Below the pieces are notes generated by a model. That model was not told the DNA's origin. It made no database searches and worked only from the letters and a program-made list of their open reading frames with translations. DNA of 58,444 nucleotides from a virus: positions 1-58,444 of the IMG/VR virus record IMGVR_UViG_3300017963_004517. One strand, given 5' to 3'. A program made the position numbers and the translations under genes. Shown here in pieces: positions 6,194 to 21,853 of this stretch. Position 1 is the stretch's first letter. The number at the start of each line of letters is the position of its first letter.

Positions 6194-7183
6194 TCACACA
6201 CGCCTGGCCTGCTTCACGATGGCGCGAAACGAATCCCGGTCATAGCCGGCTCCCAGGATGTAATCGTCCACCTTTTGATTGAGTCGTAGGATTTTGAGAT
6301 CCCGCTCCCCATACGCATCCCGCACATTCTTGAGAGCCCAGGGTTTTACGTCGGGATCCGGAATGTAACAGATATGGCCGGCATTGATAGCGTCCAGCAA
6401 CTCACGGCTGGGTGACATTGGTAATCCAAAGGCCTGGGTACGAGCGTCGTCGAATGTCAGCCAGGTGACCGCCGCCTTCTTCTCCCCCTCCACCAGGAAC
6501 GCCCAATCCGCGTCATTACACAATTCAAGGTTAGCAATGAACACCGGCTCAAACCCAACAGAATACTCCATGCGGTACTTCGTCCCGTCCGGCTGCGGAT
6601 TGATCAATCTGTGTTTTACGTTGACCACCTCCCCATCCAGATTGCGCTCGGCAATCGTGGCCGTGGGTGTGAGATGCTTCTCCCATCCCCCTCCGGAGTC
6701 GTACCAAAATGAATGTTCCCGATCCCACCCCAGCCCCCACTCTATCCACAAATTCACATTATTGATACCGGCATCAGACCAGTATCTCGCGCCGGCATCC
6801 TCGAAGAACAGGGTCTCTGTATAAAGCTCCCATTTTTTCTCATCCCGGAGCAACTGCAGAGCCTTCTCGGCCTCGGCCTTTCGCCGCTCTTCCTCGGCAA
6901 TCCGCTCTGCTTTCCACTGCTCCAGTTTTTCAGGATCCGGCTTGAACTCTTTATCCGGAAGCCATTTGAATCCGCAGACCCTGCACCACCCAATAGAGAT
7001 CCCGGTCTTACTAAAGGATGCAGGGAACATCCGGAACCGGTCCGGCCACTCCCCGCTCGAATGTGGAGAGCCCCCACACTCTGGGCAGGTACTGCTCCAC
7101 TCGCGCCCTCGGATCCGCTCGACAACATATTGCACATGACCTTGCAACTCATAGAACTCAGGATGTAATTGTGATTCACGCAT
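6194..7183 (-). CDS. DnaG-like primase (zinc finger plus TOPRIM-like domain)
   Basis: The 329-aa protein starts at MRESQLHPEF (7183), behind a GGAGG site. An N-terminal CPECGG...CRVCG zinc motif (Cys33, 36, 67, 70) is followed by a charged helical segment. A TOPRIM-like core follows, with VEGEKKA and IPDPDVKPW. This order matches small phage primases or primase-like proteins. It lies immediately downstream of, and overlaps, the DnaB-like helicase gene, the usual primosome arrangement. It lacks an obvious full DnaG RNA-polymerase core, so the activity could be divergent. Confidence 0.8.
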   Translation of the reverse strand: MRESQLHPEFYELQGHVQYVVERIRGREWSSTCPECGGSPHSSGEWPDRFRMFPASFSKTGISIGWCRVCGFKWLPDKEFKPDPEKLEQWKAERIAEEERRKAEAEKALQLLRDEKKWELYTETLFFEDAGARYWSDAGINNVNLWIEWGLGWDREHSFWYDSGGGWEKHLTPTATIAERNLDGEVVNVKHRLINPQPDGTKYRMEYSVGFEPVFIANLELCNDADWAFLVEGEKKAAVTWLTFDDARTQAFGLPMSPSRELLDAINAGHICYIPDPDVKPWALKNVRDAYGERDLKILRLNQKVDDYILGAGYDRDSFRAIVKQARRV

Positions 7184-8228
7184 TGGATTCCTCCGGATTG
7201 TCAACGTCCAAGGTCTCGTTATAATATTTCATTTCCCCCTGGACCAGATAGTTATATTCAGGCTCGAACTTTACAAACTTTTTGAAGTTCTCCGGCCCTT
7301 TCTTCCGTTTCAAAACCGAAATGATCATATCGTTATGGTCTTTCACGTAAAGCAGAGGCGAGTCCGCTTTGCCAAACTTTGGCGGAATTTTCTCGTCTGG
7401 CGTGACGTAATGCGCCGGCCGGACAACGGACAGCACCCCATCGGAGAATTGCTCCACGGTCGAGGTCCACTGGCCGTCATCCATCATAGGGATAGGCACC
7501 TGGCGATTGTCCACATCGCGCTTGGCCTGGCAGCCCAGCACCATACGAGTATTGAAATCCTCGGCCAGGTTCTTGAGCCCGTTGACCAGGTCCCCATAAA
7601 ACTCCACCCAGGCAGATCCCCGAGGCCGGAACCGCTGCAGATAGTCAATGAAAATGGAGTCGATCTCCTGGACAACCTGGTCACCCTGCCACGTCTCCAC
7701 ATCCCCCATGGCCAGCCGCAAATTATCTTCCGTGATCTCGGTCTTATCGCGCCGGCGCTTTTTGCTCTTCCCGATAAACCACAGAGGGCTGGTCATCATG
7801 TGCGGACTCTCTAAATGTTTCTGCACCCGATCCCAATCCTCTGGCTCCAGCTTGCCGGCAGCCATGTCGGTGATCGAGATCCTGAGCTCGGCAGCCACAT
7901 GGAAGAGCCGCAACTCCTCCACCAACTGCTCGGCAGTCATATACAGGACAACCTTGTTGTCGACCCCCATGTGCTTGAGATGCCCGGCACGCATGCGAGC
8001 CCACCTCATCATGAGAGATGACTTCCCGCTCCCAGGCCGGCCCAAAACTGTGATCAACTCCCCAGGCACCACCGGCAGGAACCCCTTCCCGGACTCTGGG
8101 TCATACTCCATGCCATTGATATAAATAGGCATGCCCTGGTCGCCGCCCTTGCGAATATTTTCCACATAATCGGTCGTGGCATTCGATGCCTCAACCGCAG
8201 TGAATACCAGCGTTGAACTATTAGTCAT
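7176..8228 (-). CDS. DnaB-like replicative helicase (RecA-fold core)
   Basis: The 350-aa protein carries Walker A GRPGSGKSS (63-71) and Walker B SIFIDYLQRF (191-200). These sit within a RecA-type ATPase preceded by MPIYINGMEYDPESGKG, reminiscent of the DnaB C-terminal domain. The N-terminal primase-interacting DnaB domain is missing. It should unwind DNA at the phage fork. It is flanked by a helicase-loader/initiator-like gene upstream (ATGA overlap at 8225-8228) and a primase-like gene downstream. Confidence 0.85.
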   Translation of the reverse strand: MTNSSTLVFTAVEASNATTDYVENIRKGGDQGMPIYINGMEYDPESGKGFLPVVPGELITVLGRPGSGKSSLMMRWARMRAGHLKHMGVDNKVVLYMTAEQLVEELRLFHVAAELRISITDMAAGKLEPEDWDRVQKHLESPHMMTSPLWFIGKSKKRRRDKTEITEDNLRLAMGDVETWQGDQVVQEIDSIFIDYLQRFRPRGSAWVEFYGDLVNGLKNLAEDFNTRMVLGCQAKRDVDNRQVPIPMMDDGQWTSTVEQFSDGVLSVVRPAHYVTPDEKIPPKFGKADSPLLYVKDHNDMIISVLKRKKGPENFKKFVKFEPEYNYLVQGEMKYYNETLDVDNPEESNA

Positions 8229-9136
8229 AGCGTCTCCAATTTGTCAGCCGGCTCGGGAGAGTCGCTCTGCGGAGTGAAAGCCTCCCGCCAGAGCTCCTCG
8301 ATCTTGGCAGGTTTCAACCAAATGCGCTGGTTGTTCCGCCGGAAGTCATCCTCATTGAACCATTCCATAAACATCTCGATGGTCTCGCCGGTTTCCTTTT
8401 CTCGAGCAATCAACTCCTTTTCATAACCGCACCATTCGGAGGTGGTTGCATCCCAATAACGCTCAAGGTTCTTATTCAGAGCAGACTCTACCCGCCGGCG
8501 CATCCCCTCAACCGCAGCAATCTCGTCAGCGTGCCCGAGCAGCCAATCAACTGGATCCCCTTTCCTGGCTTGCTGGGCTGCCTTACGCCGACGCGCTTCC
8601 TCCAGACCTTTGGCACGGTCGTAAGGTTTTTTCGCGCCAGCGTCTAATTGGTTATCCTCTTGGTTATCCTCTTGGTTATTCTTTGTTTCACCTGGTGACC
8701 CACCTCCTTCACCTGGTGACCCACCTCCTTCACCTGGTGAAGCCTTCACCTCATGAAGGCTCTTTTTGAACTCAACCCGAGACTGTATTGATAAATGATT
8801 CTCCGCCCATTTTATATTCCTGCTCCATAGATCCGGGATGGTCAAGTGCCAGACCGGTTGAGGGTAACCAGCATCCCGCCTTATCTCCCCCTCAAGAAAC
8901 CCCAGGTCAATCCAGTATTTGCGACACTCTGATACCTTCCCGGCTGACATGCCGCTAAGGATAGCCAGATCATCAGTAGATAAAAAACACTCGCTGGAAT
9001 CGCCAGCAACTTCCTTCACCGTATCCCAGAGAGCGTAATCATAGGGAGTCCTGCTGTAATACTTCACAATGCGAGGGTTGATCGTGAAATATTTTGCATC
9101 TCGACTTCTATCAGTGGCCTTGTGCATTTCACTCAT
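8225..9136 (-). CDS. Replication initiator or helicase-loader-like protein with winged-helix N-terminus
   Basis: Start is Met at 9136, four bases into the upstream stop (ATGA), with GGAGGAGG-like sequence upstream. The first 100 residues resemble a winged-helix domain (LSTDDLAILSGMSAGKVSECRKYWIDLGFLEG). A low-complexity middle (SPGEGGGSPGEGGG, NQEDNQEDN) is encoded by tandem DNA repeats. The C-terminal part is helical and charged and resembles the DnaD/initiator arrangement of phage replication modules. Its place directly before the helicase supports an origin-recognition or loading role. I cannot tell initiator from loader. Confidence 0.65.
   Translation of the reverse strand: MSEMHKATDRSRDAKYFTINPRIVKYYSRTPYDYALWDTVKEVAGDSSECFLSTDDLAILSGMSAGKVSECRKYWIDLGFLEGEIRRDAGYPQPVWHLTIPDLWSRNIKWAENHLSIQSRVEFKKSLHEVKASPGEGGGSPGEGGGSPGETKNNQEDNQEDNQLDAGAKKPYDRAKGLEEARRRKAAQQARKGDPVDWLLGHADEIAAVEGMRRRVESALNKNLERYWDATTSEWCGYEKELIAREKETGETIEMFMEWFNEDDFRRNNQRIWLKPAKIEELWREAFTPQSDSPEPADKLETL
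8648..8745 (-). repeat. Tandem repeats inside the initiator gene, candidate origin
   Basis: Three 12-bp units TTGGTTATCCTC (8648-8683, the last variant) are followed by two full 21-bp units (8687-8707, 8708-8728) and a partial third (8729-8740). Each 21-bp unit contains TCACCTGGTGA, an inverted repeat of five bases around a central T. Repeats within an initiator gene recall the origin in lambda gene O. Confidence 0.75.
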
Positions 9137-9327
9137 GACTCCTCCTCCTGATTCACCGCTCGAGCCTGTTCGTTCATCGCCTCGGCTTCCGGGTGCCCAC
9201 AGTGACCGTGCTCCTCCCAGCAGTCCACACAAAGCGATCTCCCGCAGTACCAACATATCTCGGGATCCAGACCAGCGTCATCCCCGCAGCGCCGGCAAAT
9301 GAAAATTGTCGCAGGATGATCAAACAT
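9133..9327 (-). CDS. Cysteine-rich zinc-binding protein (64 aa)
   Basis: The N-terminal half has CRRCG, CWYCG, CVDC and CGH in quick succession, consistent with two crossed zinc sites. The C-terminal half is acidic and Gln/Glu rich. The ATG at 9327 follows CTAGGAG. It is the first gene behind the promoter at 9507-9535 and overlaps the initiator gene, so it is probably an early gene. Substrate or partner unknown. Confidence 0.65.
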   Translation of the reverse strand: MFDHPATIFICRRCGDDAGLDPEICWYCGRSLCVDCWEEHGHCGHPEAEAMNEQARAVNQEEES

Positions 9328-9395
9328 TGCAAACTCCTAGTGGGAACAAAAATCACCTCTTGGGGGTATTTCCGTATTTCCGCTGGCAGGTTATA

Positions 9396-9457
9396 GAGAC
9401 CAAACTTCTACGACTTGCGGTACGGAAACACCCCGAAAAGGTGATTCGCTTGGTCTC
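9396..9457 (-). other. Leader hairpin
   Basis: GAGACCAA (9396-9403) and TTGGTCTC (9450-9457) form an 8-bp inverted repeat around a 46-base loop. It lies in the roughly 170-base untranslated leader between the promoter and the gene at 9327. It might serve attenuation or RNA stability; function not shown. Confidence 0.5.
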
Positions 9458-9506
9458 GCCGGCCTGCCAAACCGGGCTTGCGCTTTCGCGCTATGTTGTT
9501 ACAAAC

Positions 9507-9535
9507 AGTCTAGCACACCTGTGCAGGCCTGTCAA
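9507..9535 (-). promoter_or_regulatory. Sigma70-type promoter for the replication operon
   Basis: Minus-strand TTGACA (9535-9530) and TAGACT (9512-9507) with a 17-bp spacer. The 18-bp dispersed repeat abuts the -35 box directly upstream, where an activator or UP element would sit. It drives the genes from 9327 down through the helicase and primase-like genes. Confidence 0.7.
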
Positions 9536-9552
9536 GGTCGTAGACGTAGAAG
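9536..9552 (+). repeat. 18-bp dispersed repeat, intergenic copy (17 of 18 bases)
   Basis: Matches GGTCGTAGACGTAGAAG exactly, with T in place of the last C. It is the only copy outside a coding frame, between a promoter and the stop of the gene at 9558. Confidence 0.9.
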
Positions 9553-9557
9553 TTTTT

Positions 9558-9698
9558 TCAAAACGGCCAACTGACCCAGCCGGCAGCCAGTGCAACCGCA
9601 AATGCAATTGCAAGCGCGATCACCACCATGATACAGGCTTCGCCCATGGAGGTCAGGAAATCATGCAATAGACCGTACAGCCACTCTGAGAACCTCAT
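9558..9698 (-). CDS. Small membrane protein (46 aa)
   Basis: The ATG at 9698 overlaps the stop of the upstream gene (ATGA). After an amphipathic start (MRFSEWLYGLLHDFL) comes one long hydrophobic helix (ACIMVVIALAIAFAVALAAG) and a short aromatic tail. Likely an inner-membrane peptide. Function unknown. Confidence 0.6.
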   Translation of the reverse strand: MRFSEWLYGLLHDFLTSMGEACIMVVIALAIAFAVALAAGWVSWPF

Positions 9699-9961
9699 AT
9701 AACCCAACCTTCCAAATCAGCCAGATGCCAGCGACCGCACTGACACTTCCAATAATACTTCCCGTGATAGGGACCGACCAGGGTGTGCATCCGGAGCGTA
9801 ACGCATCTAACACAATATTCATTCTGCATTGCACCCACTGCGCATCGAACAGACACGGGCGCCAGGGACTGCTCCTGGCACCTAGGACACTTCGTCGTCG
9901 ATGCGCTCTCTGGCTGGAATCGTTTTCCACAAACGCAATAACGCCAGCCGTACCTAGGCAT
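9695..9961 (-). CDS. Double zinc-ribbon protein (88 aa)
   Basis: Three CxC/CxxC knuckle pairs are visible: CVCGKRF with CPRC, CVRC, and CQCGRWH. Together they suggest two zinc sites over the whole length. The gene is linked by overlaps to its neighbours on both sides. Possible roles in nucleic-acid or protein binding cannot be separated from sequence. Confidence 0.65.
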   Translation of the reverse strand: MPRYGWRYCVCGKRFQPESASTTKCPRCQEQSLAPVSVRCAVGAMQNEYCVRCVTLRMHTLVGPYHGKYYWKCQCGRWHLADLEGWVI

Positions 9962-10235
9962 CTTCTATTCTGTAATCCGTGTAATGACCAGCCGAGCCGG
10001 CCAGTTTGTTGACTGTGTGCCAGATAGCCGATTGTGCCTTCTTTTTGGCAGGGAAAATATGATAAGATCCATCCCCCATGATAAAAAGCAGATTCTGGCG
10101 CTCATCCCAACCCATCAACTTGTTGGCCGGAACAAAGCGCACAACAGACGGCTTCGCCGGCACGGGTGGAATGTATGGCTTGCGCCATTGACGACCGCTC
10201 CCCTTTTTGCTACCTGGATGATATATTTTTTTCAC
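9954..10235 (-). CDS. Unknown basic protein (93 aa)
   Basis: ATG at 10235 follows AGGAGGTTGTTG. The N-terminus is strongly basic (MKKIYHPGSKKGSGRQWRKP). The C-terminal half (MGWDERQNLLFIMGDGSYHIFPAKKKAQSAIWHTVNKLA) could form a small alpha/beta domain. It is the first gene behind a structured leader and a good promoter. No family recognised. Confidence 0.6.
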   Translation of the reverse strand: MKKIYHPGSKKGSGRQWRKPYIPPVPAKPSVVRFVPANKLMGWDERQNLLFIMGDGSYHIFPAKKKAQSAIWHTVNKLAGSAGHYTDYRIEDA

Positions 10236-10255
10236 AACAACCTCCTAATTAAAAC

Positions 10256-10365
10256 GAGACTGCCGGTCTAGGAGTTACGGGATAGCCAGATTGCGACTGG
10301 CTCAATGACCCGAGAACTTTCCGGCAGTCTCTGGGATACGACAGCGGGGAGCAGACATCGTATCC
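10256..10365 (-). other. Highly structured 5' leader RNA element
   Basis: GAGACTGCCGG (10256-10266) pairs perfectly with CCGGCAGTCTC (10321-10331). Inside are nested pairings AGTT/AACT, CGGG/CCCG and AGCCAG/CTGGCT around a 7-base loop. A second hairpin pairs GGATACGA (10334-10341) with TCGTATCC (10358-10365). The element lies between the promoter at 10380-10408 and the gene starting at 10235, so it is transcribed. The 76-base outer stem and 7-base inner loop resemble a tRNA outline, but no T-arm or D-arm is present. A riboswitch, protein-binding leader or stable small RNA are all possible. Confidence 0.6.
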
Positions 10366-10379
10366 ACCATCCACTCCCC

Positions 10380-10408
10380 ATTATATATTGACAAATCACG
10401 CAAGTCAA
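10380..10408 (-). promoter_or_regulatory. Sigma70-type promoter
   Basis: Minus-strand TTGACT (10408-10403) and TATAAT (10385-10380) with a 17-bp spacer. It directs transcription through the structured leader into the genes at 10235-9558. Confidence 0.75.
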
Positions 10409-10409
10409 G

Positions 10410-10544
10410 TCACTTTCTCTTAATTTCATAAAAATTCTTGACTCGAGTAACTCGGCTGGACTTTTGGCCTTGAGACTGACCCCAATAGCCCCAGGTAAAA
10501 ATGTTCATAACAACATCGAACAGAGACAGCAACATCTCAACCAT
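10410..10544 (-). CDS. Small protein (44 aa) after the HTH gene
   Basis: ATG at 10544 has a consensus-like GGAGGTGATTGGA ribosome site. A hydrophobic N-terminal segment (MVEMLLSLFDVVMNIFTWGY) is followed by a polar, basic tail. This is consistent with a peripheral or single-pass membrane peptide. It overlaps the end of the HTH gene and ends next to a promoter. Confidence 0.55.
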   Translation of the reverse strand: MVEMLLSLFDVVMNIFTWGYWGQSQGQKSSRVTRVKNFYEIKRK

Positions 10545-10848
10545 TCCAATCACCTCCTTCCGTTTCAATATACCATGCTGCCAGCAACTCCCTGCCCAGG
10601 TCGGTCACATGCAGGGTGCGGGGAGCCGTATGCCCACTTGGCAAAGTCATGCTGTCCAGCAGGCCGGCGCCGCGCATGGGCTCGAGATAAAAATTCACAA
10701 CACTGGTCGAACTAACTCCACAGGCATCCCCGATCTCACGTAATACTGGACCATACCCATATTCCAAGTAATAATCATCCAGATACCTCAAGATTGCCCA
10801 TCGTTTCGCGTTCATCTTGGCCTTAGCAATTATTGCAGAGTAATCCAT
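10537..10848 (-). CDS. Winged-helix DNA-binding regulator, LexA-N-like
   Basis: The start at MDYSAIIAKA (10848) is chosen because GGAGG precedes it. The segment WAILRYLDDYYLEYGYGPVLREIGDACGVSSTSVVNFYLEPMRGAGLL resembles the LexA N-terminal winged helix, including the YGYGPVLREIGDACGVSS recognition element. There is no LexA protease domain. It stands at a divergent promoter pair (10873-10928), the expected place for a control-switch regulator. It may repress one or both directions; this is inference from location. Confidence 0.75.
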   Translation of the reverse strand: MDYSAIIAKAKMNAKRWAILRYLDDYYLEYGYGPVLREIGDACGVSSTSVVNFYLEPMRGAGLLDSMTLPSGHTAPRTLHVTDLGRELLAAWYIETEGGDWNG

Positions 10849-10872
10849 ACAAACCTCCGAAACCATCTTGTA

Positions 10873-10901
10873 AGTCTAACTAATCTGGTGTAGAATGTCA
10901 T
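10873..10901 (-). promoter_or_regulatory. Leftward promoter for the HTH regulator
   Basis: Minus-strand ATGACA (10901-10896) and TAGACT (10878-10873) with 17-bp spacing. It overlaps at the -35 with the divergent rightward promoter. Confidence 0.5.
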
Positions 10902-10928
10902 TACATGATGGTTTTCATTTCCTATAAT
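10901..10928 (+). promoter_or_regulatory. Rightward promoter for the 10.9-13.8 kb operon
   Basis: TTACAT (10901-10906) and a perfect TATAAT (10923-10928) with 16-bp spacing, 17 bases before the first ATG of the rightward operon. Confidence 0.6.
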
Positions 10929-10945
10929 ACGAAAGGTTGTGCTAA

Positions 10946-11152
10946 ATGTCAAGAGACAAAACCAAACCCAAAACCTACCGATTGACAGAGGGCGAAGAAA
11001 TCGCAATCCAGGAACTCGCCCTCGCCGGCTGGGTCAAAGATCCGGAAGAGTTCAAAAACCGGACTGAAGTCGGAGTCCTGCGTAAAGCCCTCCGCGATGC
11101 CTGGAATAACTGCCCTGCCACCAAAGACAAACCGTTCCCAGGGGAGGAGTAG
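10946..11152 (+). CDS. Small basic protein (68 aa), possible regulator
   Basis: First gene of the rightward operon. The sequence KTYRLTEGEEIAIQELALAGWVKDPEEFKNRTEVGVLRKALRDAW resembles a ribbon-helix-helix layout (one strand then two helices), but this is only suggestive. The ribosome site is weak (GAAAGG). It could repress its own promoter. Confidence 0.55.
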   Translation: MSRDKTKPKTYRLTEGEEIAIQELALAGWVKDPEEFKNRTEVGVLRKALRDAWNNCPATKDKPFPGEE

Positions 11153-11155
11153 TCT

Positions 11156-11341
11156 ATGAGCGTAACTCCCGAACCAACAGATGAAGAATGCAAACGATGG
11201 GCTCTTGAAGATTTGGAAAAAAACAACATCGGCAATGCGCTCGGAGGGACGTTGCCGACCTTGTTCGGTACACCTGCCCAAATGAAAAATAAACTTGATC
11301 TAATTGAAAAGACGCTAGAAAAAAAAGGAGAGCAAAAATGA
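11156..11341 (+). CDS. Small acidic protein (61 aa)
   Basis: ATG at 11156 follows GGGGAGGAG. Mostly helical and charged (PTDEECKRWALEDLEKNNIG, LDLIEKTLEKKGEQK). The end overlaps the start of the membrane-protein gene by four bases, so the two are probably coupled. No family recognised. Confidence 0.6.
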   Translation: MSVTPEPTDEECKRWALEDLEKNNIGNALGGTLPTLFGTPAQMKNKLDLIEKTLEKKGEQK

Positions 11342-12267
11342 ACGATACTATGTTCAACGAAACTGATGATCTGGATGAACAACTGAACGATTATGTAGGC
11401 CGGCGAACACTGGTCTCCAGCATGAAGGATAGCGCCAATAAGCGACCAGAACTGGATGACCTGTCACTGCAATCAGAGATCCGAAAGAATGCCTGGCTAT
11501 ATTTTTTCCTGCTAGTCTCTGCCATGTTCACGTCTACCCTCGGCTTCATGATGGGAATTGCCCCCCACCGAACCGAAGCCGGCATTTACTACAATACCGA
11601 CATCGGTCACATGGTCCTGGCAGTAATCTACGCGATTGCATTCGTGACCGTGACCGAATTTGCATTCGGCCTGGCCAAATGGCTGTACTTCCGTCGTGAA
11701 GAGAAAAACATACGGCAAAAAATCTCTATGCTGGTCATGATGGGGATTTCGGGCATATCTATTGTAGCCACGGGGATTGCCGGCGGGATGGTGATCGCTT
11801 CTACAATTGCATTCCTTACAGACTTCCAAGCCATCCCCCACCAGGCACAAATTTGGGTTATTGTGGCTATCCCGACTCTGATGTTCGTCTATGCCCTATG
11901 TGGAACGATCTATATTCTATCCTCAGACGAGGCCGCTGCCAAACGCTTGGTGAGTGAGAAGGAACGCGAAAACGATCTGGACTACAGGACCAGGCAAAAA
12001 TTAATCCGTCAATGGGGCAAAGAGCAGGTGCAACGTGAAGAGATAAAATCCTACATTCGGTTGATCCAAGAGGGCAAACTGACCGCCGGCGAGGCCAACG
12101 CTGCCATAGAAGCCGGTATGACTCTTGGAGAGCTAGAGCAGGATCTCAACCGCGACCTGGACGGCGATGGAGAAATCAACCGAAAACGCCAGAGTCCTCC
12201 TGTAATCCGTCAGCCAGCCTACGCCAACGAAACCCGGGATTTTACCCGACCGTCGGATCGGAGCTAA
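11338..12267 (+). CDS. Four-TM membrane protein with charged cytoplasmic tail and calcium-loop-like motif
   Basis: The 309-aa protein has about four predicted transmembrane helices between residues 45 and 200 (LYFFLLVSAMFTSTLGFMMG, MVLAVIYAIAFVTVTEFAFG, MGISGISIVATGIAGGMVIA, VIVAIPTLMFVYALCGTIYI). A long helical tail follows. Near the C-terminus LNRDLDGDGEINRK matches the start of an EF-hand/dockerin-type loop (D-x-D-x-D-G), though position 12 is Arg and not Glu. It is neither a recognised holin nor a transporter. Its position in a regulator-led operon away from virion genes fits a host-membrane function such as exclusion or sensing, which is speculative. Confidence 0.7.
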   Translation: MNDTMFNETDDLDEQLNDYVGRRTLVSSMKDSANKRPELDDLSLQSEIRKNAWLYFFLLVSAMFTSTLGFMMGIAPHRTEAGIYYNTDIGHMVLAVIYAIAFVTVTEFAFGLAKWLYFRREEKNIRQKISMLVMMGISGISIVATGIAGGMVIASTIAFLTDFQAIPHQAQIWVIVAIPTLMFVYALCGTIYILSSDEAAAKRLVSEKERENDLDYRTRQKLIRQWGKEQVQREEIKSYIRLIQEGKLTAGEANAAIEAGMTLGELEQDLNRDLDGDGEINRKRQSPPVIRQPAYANETRDFTRPSDRS

Positions 12268-12293
12268 CCGGGCCGGCGGGGATACCAGACAGA

Positions 12294-12638
12294 GTGCCAA
12301 CAGAACTGCCAACAGACAACATTGATCTGTTGGCAGTCGGCCTGCAATCTGTTGGCATTCAAGATTTTAGCCTTGTAAACCCTGTTGGCACTGCCAACCA
12401 ACCGTTGAAAGTGCCAACAGGAACCCGCCGCGAATGGCGGATACACCGTGAAACCGGAGAACTTCGAGGAGTGTGCTTCCGTGAACGCAACAAAAAAAGA
12501 AAAACAGTCGCCTGGATTAATCACGATAGCCCCGGCTTCGAAGTCATCCGCGCCGAATATGAGCGATGGCAACGAACCGGACGATATCCTGTTGGCAGTG
12601 ATGTGGTCAGTGTTGGCAACGCTAATCAATCGGAATAA
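12294..12638 (+). CDS. Unknown protein (114 aa) encoded across an iteron array
   Basis: A GTG at 12294 opens a frame whose N-terminal 50 residues are largely encoded by inverted 8-mer repeats (VGTANQPLKVPTG). The middle part (REWRIHRETGELRGVCFRERNKKRKTVAWINHDSPGFEVIRAEYERW) looks like a genuine folded basic domain. The same VGTANQPLKVPTG peptide appears again in another frame at 12727-12766. No family recognised. An alternative overlapping frame at 12448-12777 is less protein-like. Confidence 0.45.
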   Translation: MPTELPTDNIDLLAVGLQSVGIQDFSLVNPVGTANQPLKVPTGTRREWRIHRETGELRGVCFRERNKKRKTVAWINHDSPGFEVIRAEYERWQRTGRYPVGSDVVSVGNANQSE

Positions 12639-13070
12639 GGCTCTGTTGGCAACTGCCGACTACAAGGGACAGCCGGCAACCGTGGTGATTCTTGTTGGCA
12701 CTTTGCCAACAGACAAGGGAATCGAACCTGTTGGCACTGCCAACCAACCGTTGAAAGTGCCAACAGGGAAGAACTAGCAAAAAAAGGATACTCCAATGAT
12801 GATAATATGCCCTGTATGTAGAGTAGAGCTAATCGATAAGGATCGCAGGAAAGTCGAAGATTATGCTGCTGTAAACTGTATGAATTGCGGATCGCTTGTT
12901 TTGGTTGAAGTAAAGCTCAGGAAGAGAGCAGCCCCAGCCATAACCCCTCGCACTTCACTCAATCCGTGGAGTCGAAAAAATAGACACCGTTGAAAGTGCC
13001 AACAGACAAGGGAATCGAACCTGTTGGCACTGCCAACCAACCGTTGAAAGTGCCAACAGAAGTGCCAACA
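12295..13070 (+). repeat. Iteron-like cluster of TGTTGGCA / TGCCAACA
   Basis: At least 16 copies of the octamer occur in both orientations, at 12295, 12307, 12328, 12350, 12383, 12412, 12590, 12611, 12644, 12693, 12704, 12729, 12758, 12997, 13022, 13051 and 13063. Three copies belong to a nearly identical 40-bp unit (12381-12420, 12727-12766, 13020-13059), with a fourth partial unit at 12987-13004. The array spans parts of two genes and non-coding sequence. It may be an origin, partition site or multi-operator. Confidence 0.9.
12796..12993 (+). CDS. Zinc-ribbon protein (65 aa)
   Basis: CPVC and CMNC knuckles flank a short charged loop, giving a minimal zinc ribbon in the first 35 residues. 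The C-terminus is basic (RSKNR). AGGAT precedes the ATG. It lies within the iteron array. Confidence 0.6.
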   Translation: MMIICPVCRVELIDKDRRKVEDYAAVNCMNCGSLVLVEVKLRKRAAPAITPRTSLNPWSRKNRHR

Positions 13071-13141
13071 GACAAAATTGACTGAGGCCAAAAACATGCC
13101 TCGTTATCAAAAATAACGGTATCCCTGAGAAGAGAACCTCT

Positions 13142-13465
13142 ATGACTGCACCACGTACCCCTAAGAGCAAATATCCACCCAATGTGCCCGAAAAACTGGT
13201 TTCCAAATATTTGGAGTGCGAGAGCAACATGAGCCGGCTCGCTCGCCGGCTTGGAGTCAACAAAGCGCACATCCACAATCTGTTGGTACACGGCAAGGAA
13301 CCCAAAGACAAGAAGCTCAGGAAAAAGCTATTTTTGCCGGCGAAAAGCCGCGAGGGGATCCCGGCCTGGGTCATCGGGGCAACAAAATACCTGACAGACC
13401 TGGAGGAAAAATCACTCACAACGCAAATGCGAATGTATGACCGAAAAGGGAAACGAGTGAAATGA
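13142..13465 (+). CDS. Helix-turn-helix protein (107 aa)
   Basis: The central segment NMSRLARRLGVNKAHIHNLLVHGKEPKDKKLRKKL is a plausible HTH (helix, tight turn GVN, recognition helix), followed by a basic tail. It directly follows the iteron cluster and would be the natural candidate to bind it. Its stop overlaps the next start (ATGA). The target site is not known from sequence. Confidence 0.7.
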   Translation: MTAPRTPKSKYPPNVPEKLVSKYLECESNMSRLARRLGVNKAHIHNLLVHGKEPKDKKLRKKLFLPAKSREGIPAWVIGATKYLTDLEEKSLTTQMRMYDRKGKRVK

Positions 13466-13824
13466 AACGGCTGATACTCATCTTGGCTCTGGCTTCCATG
13501 GCCTGTCAACTCCAGTCGGCGCCGGCTACCAGCACGCCCCAGGTACCGACGCCCATCCTGACCAGCACGGTCGTAGACGTAGAAGCGGGGAAGGGGGAAG
13601 CGCCAAGCCCATCCCCAACGCCGGCAGCCAGAGATTACACCGTGTCGGCTTATCGCCTGTGGGTGCGCGATATGGATATGATGCGGGTTGAGTATCTGAG
13701 CCAGGGAGATCCGGTCACCTGCATGCCAACAGACTCAGGATGGTGTATCATGGAGCAGGGCCGTCGGGTGTGGGCCGGCTGCCTGGATCCGAACCCCAAA
13801 CAACTAGGATGCGAAGCGAGGTAA
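13462..13824 (+). CDS. Putative secreted lipoprotein with SH3-like C-terminus
   Basis: A hydrophobic N-terminal signal (LILILALASMAC) ends at Cys in a weak lipobox (S-M-A-C). A Pro/Thr/Ser linker follows, containing the 18-bp repeat-encoded VVDVEA. The C-terminal 65 residues (YTVSAYRLWVRDMDMMRVEYLSQGDPVTC...GWCIMEQGRRVWAGCL) resemble a bacterial SH3-type fold with probable disulfides. It would sit outside the membrane. Last gene of the rightward operon, followed by a terminator. Surface exclusion is a possible role. Confidence 0.6.
   Translation: MKRLILILALASMACQLQSAPATSTPQVPTPILTSTVVDVEAGKGEAPSPSPTPAARDYTVSAYRLWVRDMDMMRVEYLSQGDPVTCMPTDSGWCIMEQGRRVWAGCLDPNPKQLGCEAR
13569..13586 (+). repeat. 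18-bp dispersed repeat in a rightward gene
   Basis: Exact copy of GGTCGTAGACGTAGAAGC. It keeps the same + strand orientation as the copies in leftward genes, so here a different peptide is encoded (VVDVEA, not STSTT). Confidence 0.95.
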
Positions 13825-13830
13825 CAGGAA

Positions 13831-13872
13831 AAAAAACTCCCCTCAAGCTGCTCAGGCTCGAGGGGAGTTTTT
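13831..13872. terminator. Bidirectional rho-independent terminator
   Basis: ACTCCCCTC and its complement GAGGGGAGT, extended by AGC/GCT, form a strong stem around a short loop. Runs of A lie on the left and T on the right. It separates the convergent rightward operon and the leftward gene at 13895-14191. Confidence 0.9.
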
Positions 13873-13894
13873 AGTTTTGATTACCTACCTCTCG

Positions 13895-14191
13895 TTAGAC
13901 AATCAGATAATAAGCGACCAGGACACCTGCCAACCATTTCAGTACGGCATTCACAATGTTGTGATACTGGACCGGGATGAACTTCTCAAGCAAGGCATGT
14001 CCCACAAAGGCAAGCAGCGCAGCAATGCCAGCCGCCAAAACCTTTAGTTGCTCACCAATATCAATGCCGGCCAAGTTGAATAACCAATCAGTCAACCAAG
14101 ATGCCGGCCACAACAGTAGGGCAGTCAAAGCAGCGGTCAATTCAGCCGGCCACTCAACTACCTTCATCAAGAAGTTTTTTTGTTTCGCCAT
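13895..14191 (-). CDS. Holin-like membrane protein (98 aa)
   Basis: Two to three hydrophobic helices (AALTALLLWPASWLTDWLF, LKVLAAGIAALLAFVGHALL, VLKWLAGVLVAYYLIV) with few charges between them and a basic N-terminus (MAKQKNFLMK) fit a small phage holin. GAAGGAG precedes the start. It is the terminal gene of the leftward late region. No endolysin is adjacent; the lysozyme is at 39-41 kb, so holin identity rests on topology only. Confidence 0.5.
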   Translation of the reverse strand: MAKQKNFLMKVVEWPAELTAALTALLLWPASWLTDWLFNLAGIDIGEQLKVLAAGIAALLAFVGHALLEKFIPVQYHNIVNAVLKWLAGVLVAYYLIV

Positions 14192-14243
14192 CGGAAATCT
14201 CCTTCTCCCGGCATACGACCGGGAACACTAGTGTAAACCTATT

Positions 14244-15350
14244 CTACAGATATTTCTCAATTTTTGCAAGGAACCGATCACGCCGGAACGGACTCCCGAT
14301 CATGCGTCTCTTCCAGTCGGCTATCTCCGCGTCATCCTGGATCGCACGCCGGAGCAGGCTGAGAGTCTGTCCCTTATTTTCACACTGCATGATATCGTAA
14401 GGAAACGCAACCAGGTGCTCGTACTTTTTCCAATTGCGTGCCCACATGACCGGTCCACGCCTGTGTTGAATGTGAGTCGGCATATCCGTGGCCATGGCCA
14501 CTGCCGGCACCCCCCGAGCCACGGCCAGGTACAGGAACGTCTGGTGCGCTACAACCAGGTCGGCGCCATCGATCTGGTCAAAGGCATTATTCATGAATCC
14601 GACCGTATATCTGATGTTTGGATGCTCTACTTTCTCGAGCCCAGACTCCCCCAGGTTTTTCACAAAGCGTACAGTCAAATGGATATCATCGTCATAAGCC
14701 AGCCGAGCCAGGCGCTCGAACGTCCCCCGGTTGACATCCTGGTCAACTCCACTGCAGCGAGGATGGATGGGAGCAAATAGAACTTCCCGAGGCTCATTTC
14801 GAGGCCGAAACTGCCGGATCGGGCAAAGCGACCAGCCGACCACTTCCAGAGGGCGAGAATACCCGAACGCCTCCATCACTTCGACATGCCCCTGGGCACT
14901 GACAAAATGCGCCGTTGTATAGTGCCACTCCTTGAAAATATCGTTCACCACATCCGGCCTGGCTGCGTGAGGATAGACAAAAAAGACCTTAGTGCCATGA
15001 TTCCGCATCTTATCCAGTTTGAATCGCCGCCCCCCCATGTCGGTATCGGTCAATACAAAAAGAGTCCCCGGATAATTGAAACCATCCACAAAATGGTACT
15101 TCCCTCCGCGATTGATAGCATCGATGAACTTGTCAGCCTTACCCTGGTGGTTGAAGCAAGCAAATGCAGTATATTCGACAGGGACAACTGGAGGGCGAGA
15201 AGGATGTGCCGGCCGGCGGGGAATCCTAATTTCCGACCGGTCTCGAGGGACAAAATTTGTTTTTTTACAATCACGACAATGGTACTTGTCAACATTGGTC
15301 ATCGACCTCAAAAAGCGCAGCTTGGGTGAATTGCAAAACTGACAACGCAT
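14244..15350 (-). CDS. Zinc-ribbon plus GT-B-like glycan enzyme
   Basis: The 368-aa protein begins with a zinc ribbon (CQFC...CRDC, Cys3, 6, 24, 27). A long domain follows that resembles GT-B or CDP-glycerol-phosphotransferase folds, with RRFKLDKMRNHGTKVFFVYPH, EVLFAPIHPRC and HIQHRRGPVMWARNWKKYEHLVAFPYD. It shares its general layout and C-terminal WKRRMIGSPFRRDRFLAKIEKYL-like ending with the gene at 17601-18509 (WKAAHIGSNFDRERFL), so the two are paralogues. Likely activity is sugar or polyol-phosphate transfer. Acceptor unknown. Confidence 0.6.
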   Translation of the reverse strand: MRCQFCNSPKLRFLRSMTNVDKYHCRDCKKTNFVPRDRSEIRIPRRPAHPSRPPVVPVEYTAFACFNHQGKADKFIDAINRGGKYHFVDGFNYPGTLFVLTDTDMGGRRFKLDKMRNHGTKVFFVYPHAARPDVVNDIFKEWHYTTAHFVSAQGHVEVMEAFGYSRPLEVVGWSLCPIRQFRPRNEPREVLFAPIHPRCSGVDQDVNRGTFERLARLAYDDDIHLTVRFVKNLGESGLEKVEHPNIRYTVGFMNNAFDQIDGADLVVAHQTFLYLAVARGVPAVAMATDMPTHIQHRRGPVMWARNWKKYEHLVAFPYDIMQCENKGQTLSLLRRAIQDDAEIADWKRRMIGSPFRRDRFLAKIEKYL

Positions 15351-15946
15351 TATCGCCTCAGTTTTTTCAGGAACACCCTGGCTACATAATGACTGTTCGC
15401 ACCAGGGACGTGATAAACAGTATCAATGCAGTGCATTCCATGACTCTCGAAAATTTCACGATAGTTGCGGGATACATGCAGGGAGCCATTGCGGCTCTTC
15501 TCGTCCTCGATAGTGATGATCAGCTTGCGCGTGCGCTCGTACATTTTAGCAAAAACCCACTCACTGTCAGGATGCAGGTGCATAAGCACCGCCACTGAAA
15601 AAATGACATGCACCGTCCTGTGTGTCGGCAACTGCTCCTCGATTGCTCCGATCCGGATTTTAGCTGCGAGCTCAGGATACTTGTCCACCATCAGTTCAAT
15701 TGCATCCGGATTGATCTCGATCCCATAAAGCCGTTGGTAGCCGGCCTGGCTGAGGGTTGCCAGGTTCCGGCCAACGTTACAACCTAACTCAAGCACAGTA
15801 TGGGAGTACGCTACGTGATGTTTACGGAACAGGTCCAACAGAAACTGGCTGCGCTTATCAGACCGGATTCCCGACACATAACACTCAGGCCTGTTCTCTT
15901 CCGGAGGGTTGTACCAATAATCCCAGATCTCCTCGCGCTTATCCAT
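15350..15946 (-). CDS. Class I SAM-dependent methyltransferase
   Basis: VLELGCNVGRNLATLSQAGY matches motif I of Rossmann-fold methyltransferases, followed by LYGIEINPDAIELM (motif II) and VIFSVAVLMHLHPDSEWVFAKMYE (motif IV region). At 198 aa it is a minimal enzyme. Its place between glycosyltransferase-like genes suggests methylation of a sugar or sugar-linked product, by inference only. It starts next to the end of the upstream gene. Confidence 0.8.
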   Translation of the reverse strand: MDKREEIWDYWYNPPEENRPECYVSGIRSDKRSQFLLDLFRKHHVAYSHTVLELGCNVGRNLATLSQAGYQRLYGIEINPDAIELMVDKYPELAAKIRIGAIEEQLPTHRTVHVIFSVAVLMHLHPDSEWVFAKMYERTRKLIITIEDEKSRNGSLHVSRNYREIFESHGMHCIDTVYHVPGANSHYVARVFLKKLRR

Positions 15947-16793
15947 TAGTACACCATACTCCCATCCGGGTCAATAATCCATTCGAATGGTCAATCCATT
16001 CCAGGCCGGCACGGCTGAACATTGGCTCGATCTCGGATGCGAAATTCGCAGCCTCGACCCAATCCCACTGCGTATCCATCCCGTACTGGCGCGTGAATAC
16101 CTGCTCGGTCCGGAAGCTATCCGGCTCATAATCGGGCAGACCATCCCACCAATGATGCTGCAGGTCACGCCCCTCGGGGAATCCCAGGTCAAATCCGATT
16201 GTGTGAACTTTCGCACACCCCAGGATGCCGGCCCAATGTAAGCACTGGAATGCCACTCCTCCCACGCTCCAGTTTGTCCGGCACCCCAACTCGGCTCGCC
16301 GTTTGAATATCGCGCCCAGCAGCAGCCCCTGGTCATATTCTCTCAGACTGAAATTCTTATCCATGTGCGCCCGGTTGAAACGGATGATATTGGGAGTATG
16401 CAGCCCGAAATGGGAGCCGACAGACGGCAGGTTTTTGTGACAGTTTGGGATCCAGTTTTGCCAGTTGATCAATCTATACTTGGCTGTGTTTTCAGCCCTG
16501 AACACATGCAGGTATTTTATATCCCGCTCGATGCCCTTCATAGAATAGATAAAAGCCCGGTTCAGGTTCTCGCCAACCAGCCAATACTCAGCACCAGGAA
16601 TCGCAGTTGCGCTATTGCAAGTAATGATCACGTCCGGATTCAACTTCTTCTTGAAATACTCCCACATTTTCCCGCTCGGACCACCCAGGATAATCAGAGC
16701 ACGGCCTCCCTCGAATTTCCCCTTGTGCCGGCGAATGATAAAAGGCTCGTCCGGTCTGTTGTGAGACTTATCGAACATCTCGCAGATCCTCAT
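15939..16793 (-). CDS. DUF115/MptE-like family protein, paralogue of the 21-kb gene
   Basis: The 284-aa protein starts with RALIILGGPSGKMWEYFKKKLNPDVIITCNSA, a Rossmann-type nucleotide-binding pattern. It has a conserved GGVAFQCLHWAGILGCAKVHTIGFDL core and a C-terminal EQVFTRQYGMDTQWDWVEAANFASEIEPMF...LEWIDHSNGL. The same pattern occurs in the gene at 20984-21853. DUF115 and sialyltransferase-like proteins have this type of layout. Substrate unknown. Confidence 0.6.
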   Translation of the reverse strand: MRICEMFDKSHNRPDEPFIIRRHKGKFEGGRALIILGGPSGKMWEYFKKKLNPDVIITCNSATAIPGAEYWLVGENLNRAFIYSMKGIERDIKYLHVFRAENTAKYRLINWQNWIPNCHKNLPSVGSHFGLHTPNIIRFNRAHMDKNFSLREYDQGLLLGAIFKRRAELGCRTNWSVGGVAFQCLHWAGILGCAKVHTIGFDLGFPEGRDLQHHWWDGLPDYEPDSFRTEQVFTRQYGMDTQWDWVEAANFASEIEPMFSRAGLEWIDHSNGLLTRMGVWCTNG

Positions 16794-17604
16794 CCAGGAT
16801 ATTGCCTATGTGCCGGCAGAGTCGCTCCTCTGTGCATAGTCTCAAGCCAACCTCGCCAAGAGCAACGTCAAAAGGCCACTCGTCCGGAGTCAGCAGTCCG
16901 TCCACTGCTGCATCCGCAACCTGGGAAATTTTCTCAACGATCCCAATAAACTGGCAATGATGGGATTGGGCATAGACCCGCTGGCCTAGATAGCTCATCC
17001 TGTAATCCACATCATTCTCAGTGAGCTTATTATATTTATCCCAGGACCAGCCCACGGAAGCAGCGTGCTGCCGTTCCCAGCTTTCAGGAATGAAACGACC
17101 CTGCTCCAACTTTGCACACGCCCGAGCCCATTCTAAAGTCGATTCTATTCCGCGTCGAAATTGAGTCCTGATAGGGTAGCCGCTCACAGCCGCAACATTT
17201 GGGAACAGTCTCAATATTCCCACCTGGGGGAAAAGCCAATTGTCGTAATAGTAGATGTCATCATCTGAACAGCATACAACCGCATTGAGGGGGAGCATCT
17301 TCAACGCCATAGCTCTGGCCAGCCCCTTCCCCAGATTGGGTGACTGGACCAGGATGTCCGGCTGGAAATCATCCTGCAGCCAGTCTAGCAGCAACCGGCT
17401 CGAGCCGTTATCCCAGACAAAAAATGTATGATCGCAATGAGCCCGGTCGCGCATGGTTTCCAGGCACGTCTGGATGACCTCCATCCGTTCCTTGTGATAG
17501 CCAGACGTGTCGTCATCTCTCCAGTGGGTGACCACAAAAAAAATGACGGCCTTGAGTTTATAACCAGCCGGCTTTTTGTGGTTCGGATTTGTCAGCGTTC
17601 TCAT
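16768..17604 (-). CDS. GT-A family glycosyltransferase
   Basis: VIFFVVTHWRDDD near the N-terminus, SPNLGKGLARAMALKMLP in the middle, and VCCSDDDIYYYDNWLFPQVGIL form the usual GT-A nucleotide-sugar pattern. The DDD cluster probably provides the metal-binding DxD. The C-terminal part (about 200-278) is unassigned. Likely transfers a sugar in the phage glycan island. Confidence 0.75.
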   Translation of the reverse strand: MRTLTNPNHKKPAGYKLKAVIFFVVTHWRDDDTSGYHKERMEVIQTCLETMRDRAHCDHTFFVWDNGSSRLLLDWLQDDFQPDILVQSPNLGKGLARAMALKMLPLNAVVCCSDDDIYYYDNWLFPQVGILRLFPNVAAVSGYPIRTQFRRGIESTLEWARACAKLEQGRFIPESWERQHAASVGWSWDKYNKLTENDVDYRMSYLGQRVYAQSHHCQFIGIVEKISQVADAAVDGLLTPDEWPFDVALGEVGLRLCTEERLCRHIGNILDEDLRDVR

Positions 17605-18509
17605 AGATATTCCCTAACAATTCCCAGGAACCGCTCCCTGTCGAAATTAGAGCCAATGTGCGCAGCTTTCCAGTGCTCTACTGCACCGGACCCGGATACT
17701 GCGAACCCGAGCACCTCATCGATGGTCATCCCTTCCAGAGACAAGGGATAGGCATAAAGATCACGGTAGGACTCAAAATTCTTGGCTCGCCGGCCGGTAA
17801 TCGTCTCGAGAGGCTCATCCTGTCCATACATGACAGTAGGGCATCCCCGAGCGACCCCCAGGGCCGCTGGGGTAGTGACTGAAATCATCAGGCCGGCCTG
17901 GTCAATGCGCTCGATCATATCGCCGGCGGGATTGGCTGTCGCTTTTGGATTGGTCGTGATCACCTTCCATCCGAGGTCTCCATCGTGCAGGTTTGGGAAC
18001 TGGCCGGCCAGCCGGCAGATCGTGACACTGTTCCAAACATCGTTGTAATCAAGTACAAATTTCAGCACCCCTTCGTCTAACTTCGCCTGCCGGCCCTTGT
18101 CGCGCCTGGGCCTGGCAGGAACAAACAACAGGTCAAGAGCCTTTGCAGGCCGGAAGGGGAGCACATCGCAACGCGGGAACCCACAGGCCTCCACCCGGTT
18201 CGGATATCCGTAGGCCTTCATAACCGCACGCTGCCCCTCGCCGGCCACGAAATTGCAGGCCACAGGGAGAGGCTCATAAATCCCATCCCAGATATAGCAG
18301 GTCAGGGGAGTGTGAGGGTAAACAAAAGCCGGCCCTCGGTTTATGATGAAATCCTCCTTCATCTCTCTGCGACGGAAATGATTCTCAATATCGTACAGGA
18401 TGAAATCAGCCTGGTCGAGCTTATCCACCCGGACATAGCCGGCGGACTCCAACGCTAGAACATAGGCACGGGCAGAGTCCTTGTTCTCGAAAACAAAAAA
18501 ACGTTTCAT
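17601..18509 (-). CDS. GT-B-like glycan enzyme, paralogue of the 14.2-kb gene
   Basis: Start is at MKRFFVFENKD (18509), in ATGA overlap with the upstream gene; a longer frame exists but would read through that gene. The protein of 302 aa has ADFILYDIENHF, YPHTPLTCYIWDG, DLLFVPARPRRDKGR and GVARGCPTVMYGQDEP, consistent with a nucleotide-sugar or glycerophosphate transferase. No N-terminal zinc ribbon, unlike the 14.2-kb paralogue. Confidence 0.6.
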   Translation of the reverse strand: MKRFFVFENKDSARAYVLALESAGYVRVDKLDQADFILYDIENHFRRREMKEDFIINRGPAFVYPHTPLTCYIWDGIYEPLPVACNFVAGEGQRAVMKAYGYPNRVEACGFPRCDVLPFRPAKALDLLFVPARPRRDKGRQAKLDEGVLKFVLDYNDVWNSVTICRLAGQFPNLHDGDLGWKVITTNPKATANPAGDMIERIDQAGLMISVTTPAALGVARGCPTVMYGQDEPLETITGRRAKNFESYRDLYAYPLSLEGMTIDEVLGFAVSGSGAVEHWKAAHIGSNFDRERFLGIVREYL

Positions 18510-19147
18510 CGGGACACCTTCAAAAATTGCACATAAGAGTCGAAATTTGCCATGTCGTAATAATACCCCATTTTGAAGCCATACCACACGAACTCCTGTA
18601 AAGCCAAGTTGATCGCGTCCGTGTATGTCTCCAGGTGCGCAGTCAGCCACAGATCGCGCACCTCCCGACTCCATCCCAGCACCCCCCAGGCCAGGCCAGG
18701 CTCCCCCATCTGCTTATTGATAATCACCCCTTCCCTGAGCATCCCAAACCGCTCTGGCAGGTCGGTCTGATGTAACCCGAGTGAGATCCCATCCATGGGG
18801 AACTCAGCGAACACGCTCACATCCGGGTAGGTATCCGGCATCGCAAAATAATAATAGTCGGCATAGTCCTCCAGGCCGGCCAGGATGGAACCCCAGAAAT
18901 CGAGATCCATGCGCTCATTCGGTCTGAGTAGTACCCGGTCATTTAGACCGCATCGATCAATGTGCCTGACAATCTCCCCAGCGGTCGCATCCGAATAAAC
19001 CACAATAACCTGCTCTGCCGGCATGGCGTTTATCGTCCGGTCTAGCAGCCACACACGCTCTCCACAGGGGAGCAGGAACTTTGGATAATATCCCCACCTG
19101 GAGCCCAGGCCGGCTGCAGGCACGATACCCAATTTTTTTATAGCCAT
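18506..19147 (-). CDS. Nucleotidyltransferase (sugar-activation type)
   Basis: The N-terminus LGIVPAAGLGSRWGYYPKFLLPCGERVWLLDRTI carries the GxGxR...K nucleotide-binding signature of NDP-sugar pyrophosphorylases. A later acidic YYFAMPDTYPD is the likely metal site. It should charge a sugar with a nucleotide for the adjacent transferases. Sugar specificity cannot be read. At 213 aa it is a short but complete-looking version. Confidence 0.8.
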   Translation of the reverse strand: MAIKKLGIVPAAGLGSRWGYYPKFLLPCGERVWLLDRTINAMPAEQVIVVYSDATAGEIVRHIDRCGLNDRVLLRPNERMDLDFWGSILAGLEDYADYYYFAMPDTYPDVSVFAEFPMDGISLGLHQTDLPERFGMLREGVIINKQMGEPGLAWGVLGWSREVRDLWLTAHLETYTDAINLALQEFVWYGFKMGYYYDMANFDSYVQFLKVSR

Positions 19148-20855: not shown

Positions 20856-20991
20856 CTTTTTCGCCTTCCGTATAAAACGCGATATGGTCCGGGCACTTCA
20901 ACCGTTTCTCAATAACCTCCGACCCCAGGCCATTCTTGCGAATCAAAACTGTTATATGCGCTGATTTCGGCTTCCCGCAAATTTTACACAT
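20839..20991 (-). CDS. Small zinc-binding protein (50 aa)
   Basis: Start at MCKICGKPKSAH (20991), preceded by AGGAGA. CxxC at the N-terminus and a single later Cys in LKCPDH could complete one zinc site. Overlaps the stop of the upstream gene. A longer upstream frame reads through the 47-bp repeat and is not preferred. Confidence 0.5.
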   Translation of the reverse strand: MCKICGKPKSAHITVLIRKNGLGSEVIEKRLKCPDHIAFYTEGEKDERQT

Positions 20992-21853
20992 GAGCTCTCC
21001 TGGCCGGCACGGAAGCCCCGCCCGAAGTGGACGGGGTCGTAGACGTAGAAGCGCAAAACAAACCCATGGCCTCGAACAGACCGTGACTATGGTCAACCCA
21101 CCGCAACCCATCGCGCTCGAACAAAGGTTCTAACGTCCCCAACCATCGGGCTCCCTGCAGCCAGTCGTGCTGGGTCTGCAGGCCGGCGAACTGCGTGAAC
21201 ATCCTCCCGGTCCGGAACCGGTCCGGTTGATACTTCGGATATTTATACCAATGGTCCAGACTGCAAAAATCCATCCCAATGGTGTGAACTTCCGCGCACC
21301 CCAGGATGCCGGCCAAATGGATCGCCTGGGTGCCAACAGTCCCGACCCGAAACTGTATACGCTCCGAAGTCAATGCTCCAGGATGGTCGAAGAGAGGGCC
21401 GGCCAGGAACCCGTCCCCATACGCTCGAAAATTGAACCGTACGAACTGCGCCTCGTAATCGTCCCCGAGCTCGCCCATGCGCTTGATCTTGACCACGTTC
21501 CTGATACGGTCATCAATCAGGACCGGATCTTTCCAATTCAAAAACGAATACAACCGCCGGCGAGCATGATGGTCAGGGGATAGTATCCTCATCATCTGCC
21601 GATACCGCTCCTCACCCTTCGCAGCACGGCCGGCAGCCAGGTGCATATTTTCCACGACCAAATGATAATCCAGATCGTCTATCTCGAAGCATACCCCATT
21701 GACGCCAATGACCACATCCGGATCCAGGGAGTCTCTCAAGGATTGCCAGCCCCGAGCCGACTCTCCTCCTAAGATCACCAAAGCCGTGCCTCCATAGTTG
21801 GAGGCCGTGAGGTTATTCATACCCTGCGGGTTATCCGGTCTCACGCCTTCCAC
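20984..21853 (-). CDS. DUF115/MptE-like family protein, paralogue of the 16-kb gene
   Basis: Shares with the 15939-16793 protein the opening ALVILGGESARGWQSLRDSLDPDVVIGVNGV. It also shares the core VGTQAIHLAGILGCAEVHTIGMDF and the tail RTGRMFTQFAGLQTQHDWLQGARW...LRWVDHSHGLFEAMGLF. Its last residues (CASTSTTPSTSGGASVPARRAHV region) come from the 47-bp repeat, so the end was probably added or replaced by that element. Met12 at 21820 is an alternative start. Function as for the paralogue, unknown. Confidence 0.6.
   Translation of the reverse strand: MEGVRPDNPQGMNNLTASNYGGTALVILGGESARGWQSLRDSLDPDVVIGVNGVCFEIDDLDYHLVVENMHLAAGRAAKGEERYRQMMRILSPDHHARRRLYSFLNWKDPVLIDDRIRNVVKIKRMGELGDDYEAQFVRFNFRAYGDGFLAGPLFDHPGALTSERIQFRVGTVGTQAIHLAGILGCAEVHTIGMDFCSLDHWYKYPKYQPDRFRTGRMFTQFAGLQTQHDWLQGARWLGTLEPLFERDGLRWVDHSHGLFEAMGLFCASTSTTPSTSGGASVPARRAHV
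21006..21052 (+). repeat. 47-bp composite repeat, copy 2, including the 18-bp element
   Basis: 44 of 47 positions match copy 1 at 4412-4458. The 18-bp core is 21035-21052. It forms the very C-terminus of the 20984-21853 gene. Confidence 0.9.

Follow-up and report, generated by a model that had tools for sequence, protein, structure and literature searches.

An octamer array in a phage operon is exchanged together with its resident genes between related phages

The DNA analysed here, referred to as the window, is a virus record of 58,444 bases. It contains a rightward operon in which the TM gene, encoding a multi-pass membrane protein (11338–12267, + strand), is followed by two overlapping genes, X and Y, a small Cys-rich ORF, a gene for an HTH protein and, at its end, a gene for an SH3 lipoprotein (13462–13824, +). 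Gene X (12294–12638, +; start codon uncertain) encodes a REWRI domain with a core at about 12417–12593, and gene Y (12559–12777, +), a member of the EEPTE family, overlaps X over its 3' part, in a different frame. The ORF at 12796–12993 (+) specifies a zinc-ribbon-like CxxC..CxxC protein of 65 residues that has a weak ECs_2282_CxxC match and was not seen in the operons of relatives. For the HTH protein (13142–13465, +), only weak transposase-type HTH matches were obtained, and its use as a query in the viral scan returned no relatives. X and Y matched no family in Pfam, PHROGs or NCBIfam, and searching INPHARED phages, PLSDB plasmids and GTDB genomes with X found none. Structure prediction modelled X as β-β-β-α, with a pLDDT of 85 for the homologue from record G003, and the model gave no significant fold match, PDB included. 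An AP2 fold, considered as a candidate for X, was rejected, as neither a significant PDB match nor a Pfam match was found. PADLOC defence models matched none of ten module proteins, and the operon is without a family name in any library searched. Elsewhere in the window, a C5 cytosine methyltransferase adjoins an HhH-GPD/endonuclease III-like protein (407–2504), and two pairs of paralogous genes occupy the region of about 14–22 kb (14244–15350, 17601–18674, 15939–16793 and 20984–21853), each of the two families also matching one protein of record G005.

Across the genes between TM and the lipoprotein extends an array of the octamer TGTTGGCA (12295–13070, both strands). The preliminary description had counted at least 16 copies running in both directions; there are 17 exact sites, 9 on the plus and 8 on the minus strand, where about 0.03 would be expected. 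They lie at 12295−, 12307−, 12328+, 12350+, 12383+, 12412−, 12590+, 12611+, 12644+, 12693+, 12704−, 12729+, 12758−, 12997−, 13022+, 13051− and 13063−. An 18th site falls inside the lipoprotein gene (13724−), and only three more occur in the 58 kb, for a whole-window chance expectation of 2.1. TGTTGGCA is the locally densest 8-mer of the entire record, and order-2 Markov simulations of the record, which served as background for both-strand 8-mer clusters, produced no comparable cluster. A 40-bp unit, described earlier as present three times plus a partial fourth, was located in all its copies, at about 12382, 12728 and 13020 and, as the partial one, at 12986–13006. The ORF at 12796–12993 is flanked on both sides by a perfect 63-nt direct repeat (12704–12766 and 12997–13059, both +), the array being non-coding in the second copy. 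GC skew showed no consistent extreme at the array, and a literature search for the octamer found no relevant paper.

Across relatives, the octamer falls in several reading frames and yields several different peptides, so the conserved feature is the DNA. Coding sequence holds 76 of 80 sites, and the readings, with sites in overlapping genes entered for both genes, are LPT/VPT (28), LLA/VLA (27), xVGx (23), ANT/ANS (10) and CQQ/CQH (2); the frame requiring Cys-Trp is used by no site. The preliminary description had reached the same view by a different argument, namely that two ORFs encode the same peptide, VGTANQPLKVPTG, from the repeats. This argument alone is insufficient, since both ORFs read the unit in the same codon phase. 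When sites were pooled across relatives, an extended consensus, A[C/G]TGTTGGCA[A/G/C]T, was obtained, and site orientation proved random, with 40 changes among 74 neighbouring pairs. Both features fit independent asymmetric sites on double-stranded DNA and argue against RNA hairpins and a CRISPR. Hairpins were rejected as the role of the array, as orientation alternates no more than by chance. The earlier statement that the array is not a CRISPR agrees with its irregular spacing, its use of both strands and the position of sites within genes, and the regularly spaced direct repeats with unique spacers of a CRISPR are not found in it. The units had also been called directional palindromes: four TTGGCA-TGCCAA palindromes are indeed present, but orientation overall is random. 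Helical phasing of the spacing gave a pooled jitter p of 0.004 but was not reproduced array by array and was dropped.

The check for the same repeat in relatives suggested earlier turned up five further virus records whose copy of the operon holds the same word. Scanning viral contigs for the DNA pattern yielded L072 (G001) and L039 (G002), and a both-strand pattern search added L173 (G004) and L164 (G005; IMGVR_UViG_3300025030_000131). L090 (G003), with 14 octamers, was reached through the X protein, a query blind to the array. In G004, TGTTGGCA is outnumbered by a shifted word, AGTGTTGG. The array of each of the six records lies between the TM and lipoprotein genes or runs into their ends, and whole-record counts place octamer clusters at this one locus only in each. 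Window X is about 40–50% identical to X of G001, G002, G003 and G004, all with TGTTGG-type arrays, and these four records also keep the X/Y overlap. The TM protein of G001 is 37% identical to that of the window, and the G001 lipoprotein homologue matches SH3_3. Just downstream of the G001 operon, in the same orientation, lies a tyrosine recombinase gene (L072 7333–8310) that by eye resembles an integron integrase. G005 additionally carries a single-strand, tandem-like CGACCAAGTGA array of about 25 copies (14667–15090), unrelated to the octamer array. The window has its structural genes in common with G005 but not with the other same-word records. As most same-word phages otherwise share little with the window, the unit in common is the operon with its array.

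The specificity of the octamer scans of viral contigs was gauged with a reversed control word. A naive count of contigs with three same-strand octamers is uninformative, giving 84 against 62 for the control, whereas dense, irregular, both-strand arrays separate the two words (4 versus 0). In the operon-bearing records the array is the densest both-strand 8-mer cluster, with 9–17 copies compared to a simulated maximum of 4. A capsid-protein scan yielded 14 further relatives of the window, none of which has a REWRI X gene or a TGTTGGCA cluster in its record, the virus records compared being possibly incomplete fragments. The long capsid relatives without the operon, G006, G014, G017 and G018, contain no array above simulated background except for a marginal 5-copy cluster in G014. 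Two MAG contigs from Chitinophagaceae and Bacteroidetes, L212 (2992–3269) and L210 (3859–4086), showed both-strand TGTTGGCA clusters without the operon. A different phenomenon from the operon arrays was noticed in L047 (5700–6200), L169 (2570–3000), L058 (10150–10650), L012 (2480–2760), L034 (2790–3080) and L044 (13150–13430). These viral contigs are unrelated, differ in GC content and lack the TM/X/Y operon; their GTTGGC arrays are non-coding and lie near AT-rich palindromes.

In three records the operon's array is built from another word, so that four specificities (array words) were sampled. At the same operon place, two of the capsid relatives, G013 and G010 (L251), have 15 TAGTGGC sites (TAGTGGCA) and 18 AGTGGCA sites (CAGTGGCA), respectively. 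Their TM proteins are homologous to that of the window (36% identity for G013) and the G013 lipoprotein is homologous to that of G001, whereas their X and Y are not recognisably related to those of the window. The third record, L256 (G020), came from viral contigs searched with only the TM protein, a query that takes no account of the array. The prediction that the operon would hold an array passed this forward test: directly downstream of TM, L256 carries a both-strand array of 9 CTAATGG sites (TAATGGC word). By eye, TGGC is common to all four words, which suggests related recognition.

G020 is a close relative of the window, with a 91% identical capsid protein, a 79% identical TM protein and a 62% identical lipoprotein. 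Along 8001–15630 the two DNAs are 70–85% identical, and this homology is interrupted by a block at 12283–13494 that has no DNA homology to G020, where the TAATGGC array lies instead. The break falls at 12282, 12 bp ahead of the first octamer, and homology is regained at 13495, inside the lipoprotein gene. The exchanged block contains the array, X, Y and the N-terminal half of the HTH protein. X of the window shows no similarity in G020, whose own X is unrelated to it, as are those of G013 and G010. The C-terminal half of the HTH protein is kept in G020 at 40%, whereas the N-terminal (HTH) half is replaced. Within this pair, CTAATGGC clusters in G020 only and TGTTGGCA in the window only. Given the block break, the unrelated X and the word clusters exclusive to each phage, array sites and resident genes were exchanged together, and X, Y and the HTH N-terminus all change along with the motif. 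According to the preliminary description, absence of the repeat from close relatives with intact operons would refute its reading of the array. Literally, TGTTGGCA is absent from just such a relative, yet G020 has an array of another word at that place.

We consider it probable that the locus is a type-specific cassette of sites plus their binder, embedded in a phage operon, a grading that applies to this reading and not to its function. The array would then consist of roughly 9–17 short asymmetric sites in either direction, partly within genes and selected as DNA. A sequence-specific protein from the same exchanged block, most likely X, would bind the octamers, probably with one X molecule per octamer, and loading of the sites would build one large nucleoprotein complex. 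As sites and binder swap as one block between the conserved TM and lipoprotein flanks, each phage would recognise its own DNA. That X is the binder and acts as a monomer is what we infer from its location and its co-change with the motif, which make it the most likely first candidate. All five records with a REWRI-family X have a TGTTGG-type array, and of the four with another X, three have another word. In the remaining one, G005, a TGTTGGCA array occurs with an X not recognisable as REWRI, and the TM match is marginal, so X is not proven to set specificity. The structural model, lacking a significant fold match, lends no support to DNA binding by the putative binder X. Y or the HTH N-terminus could also be the binder, both changing together with X. 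The HTH protein had been proposed for this role at the outset; the swap of its N-terminal half with the motif speaks for it, but the G013 and G010 arrays occur in operons without a recognisable HTH version.

As to what such a complex would do, our leading guess, held tentatively, is that the array is coupled to the constant membrane protein and serves as a centromere-like site or an anchor. Centromeres built from short repeats include R1 parC with ParR, pSM19035 parS with omega and P1 parS with ParB. The present arrays share with plasmid and phage centromeres the local clustering of short sites and the type specificity. They differ in that no ParA is found in the six TGTTGG records, ParB occurs inconsistently, the spacing is irregular and sites lie in genes, and in having a membrane protein and a lipoprotein as their constant partners.

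An auxiliary replicator and a clustered repressor array are close rivals of this function, although each is unlikely in its own right. On the first, X or Y would be an initiator acting on iterons in and around its own gene, and type specificity would explain the block exchange. Lambdoid phages provide a precedent for iterons within the gene of the initiator itself (PMC7466680), lambda O binding to such repeats midway along gene O. The array sits in the X and Y genes and changes along with them, and the lambdoid case resembles it in the repeated sites within coding DNA of the (here hypothetical) binder and in the phage-type-specific pairing of binder and sites (PMC7466680). Unlike the gene O origin, however, the arrays comprise 9–17 sites across several genes, in both orientations and with irregular spacing, no AT-rich tract was noted, and X is not recognisably an initiator, with no initiator homology in Pfam, PHROGs or NCBIfam. 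The distance from the array to the putative initiator gene is variable, from about 3 to 12 kb. Moreover, the window has a second, iteron-like cluster at 8648–8758 (−), inside the ORF at 8225–9256 and by the DnaB-like helicase gene (7176–8228). It consists of a perfect 12-mer, a perfect 21-mer and a near-perfect 16-mer in tandem and a palindrome, TTCACCTGGTGA, and is a candidate for a lambda-like replication origin separate from the array. In the G010 record, which is only 23 kb long, seven perfect DnaA boxes (TTATCCACA) fall within 0.2 kb (L251 836–1044), upstream of the TM operon and apart from its array, and are likely that phage's origin. In view of these two clusters, the origin idea put forward in the preliminary description is possible, but less likely to apply at the array itself.

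On the repressor reading, the array would form an immunity region, in which X or the HTH protein silences the operon or blocks transcription and block exchange creates new immunity types; this, too, seems doubtful. Lambdoid immunity regions are swapped as one block of binder and sites between conserved flanks. The exchange of sites and (hypothetical) binder between homologous flanks follows the same pattern, with the difference that the array lies within the operon and is not a set of promoter operators. A second precedent comes from the stoperators of cluster A mycobacteriophages, asymmetric phage-specific sites that are bound by a repressor monomer and differ between close phages (PMC9283540; PMC6550527). 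The likeness extends to short asymmetric sites, many per genome, with a consensus that varies between related phages (PMC9283540; PMC6550527). Stoperators are dispersed over the genome and oriented with transcription (PMC9283540; PMC6550527), whereas the array sites are confined to one 0.8-kb locus, mostly in coding DNA, and are randomly oriented. Furthermore, no octamer is present at the likely promoter region of the operon (about 10.87–10.95 kb), and no repressor homologue was matched, X and Y having no family match and the HTH protein weak transposase-type matches only.

Less credible still is a titration array, a decoy for a DNA-binding protein of the host. Its many copies, its random orientation and its uneven spacing would suit such a sponge, but motif and resident genes change together between close phages, and a shared host target would account for this only if the hosts differed. 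In addition, when 84,980 bacterial and archaeal genomes were scanned for the motif on both strands, no module and only 39 scattered loci emerged. We regard as similarly improbable that the repeats, without any binding protein, merely aid recombination and so help small early genes to be swapped. That the block is exchanged is clear, the 63-nt repeat frames an ORF, and the G001 recombinase gene lies close beside its array. Nevertheless, the words differ between phages, so shared homology cannot come from them, and neither a tyrosine recombinase nor a serine resolvase was found in the window. TGTTGGCA is at odds with the integron core, GTTRRRY, and the extended consensus exceeds what homology needs. 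Least likely is a ParB-parS type centromere served by the ParB/Spo0J-family protein of the window (50970–51851, −), since, although G002 and G013 also have ParB_N proteins, the array-bearing records G020 (the nearest relative), G001, G003, G004, G005 and G010 (a 23-kb record) have no ParB_N match, the array-less G006 has two, and a search of the six TGTTGG records for AAA_31 (ParA-type) proteins found none. The ParB-like proteins suggested earlier for a test of array binding were rejected accordingly.

Returning to the cassette of sites plus binder, its most specific form would be a membrane-coupled recognition system without ParA, in which the constant TM protein and lipoprotein work with an exchangeable X/Y adaptor and its own array to anchor or partition the genome. 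We put this forward as speculation that is rather unlikely to hold. If true, it would set the compatibility between related phages, and its binding specificity would turn over by block exchange. The operon offers small candidate DNA-binding proteins and, for at least four specificities, the sites they are predicted to target. The natural swaps of a DNA word and its resident genes, between phages that are otherwise 70–91% identical, are a ready-made experiment, bearing on the evolution of DNA-recognition specificity and on how phage types stay apart.
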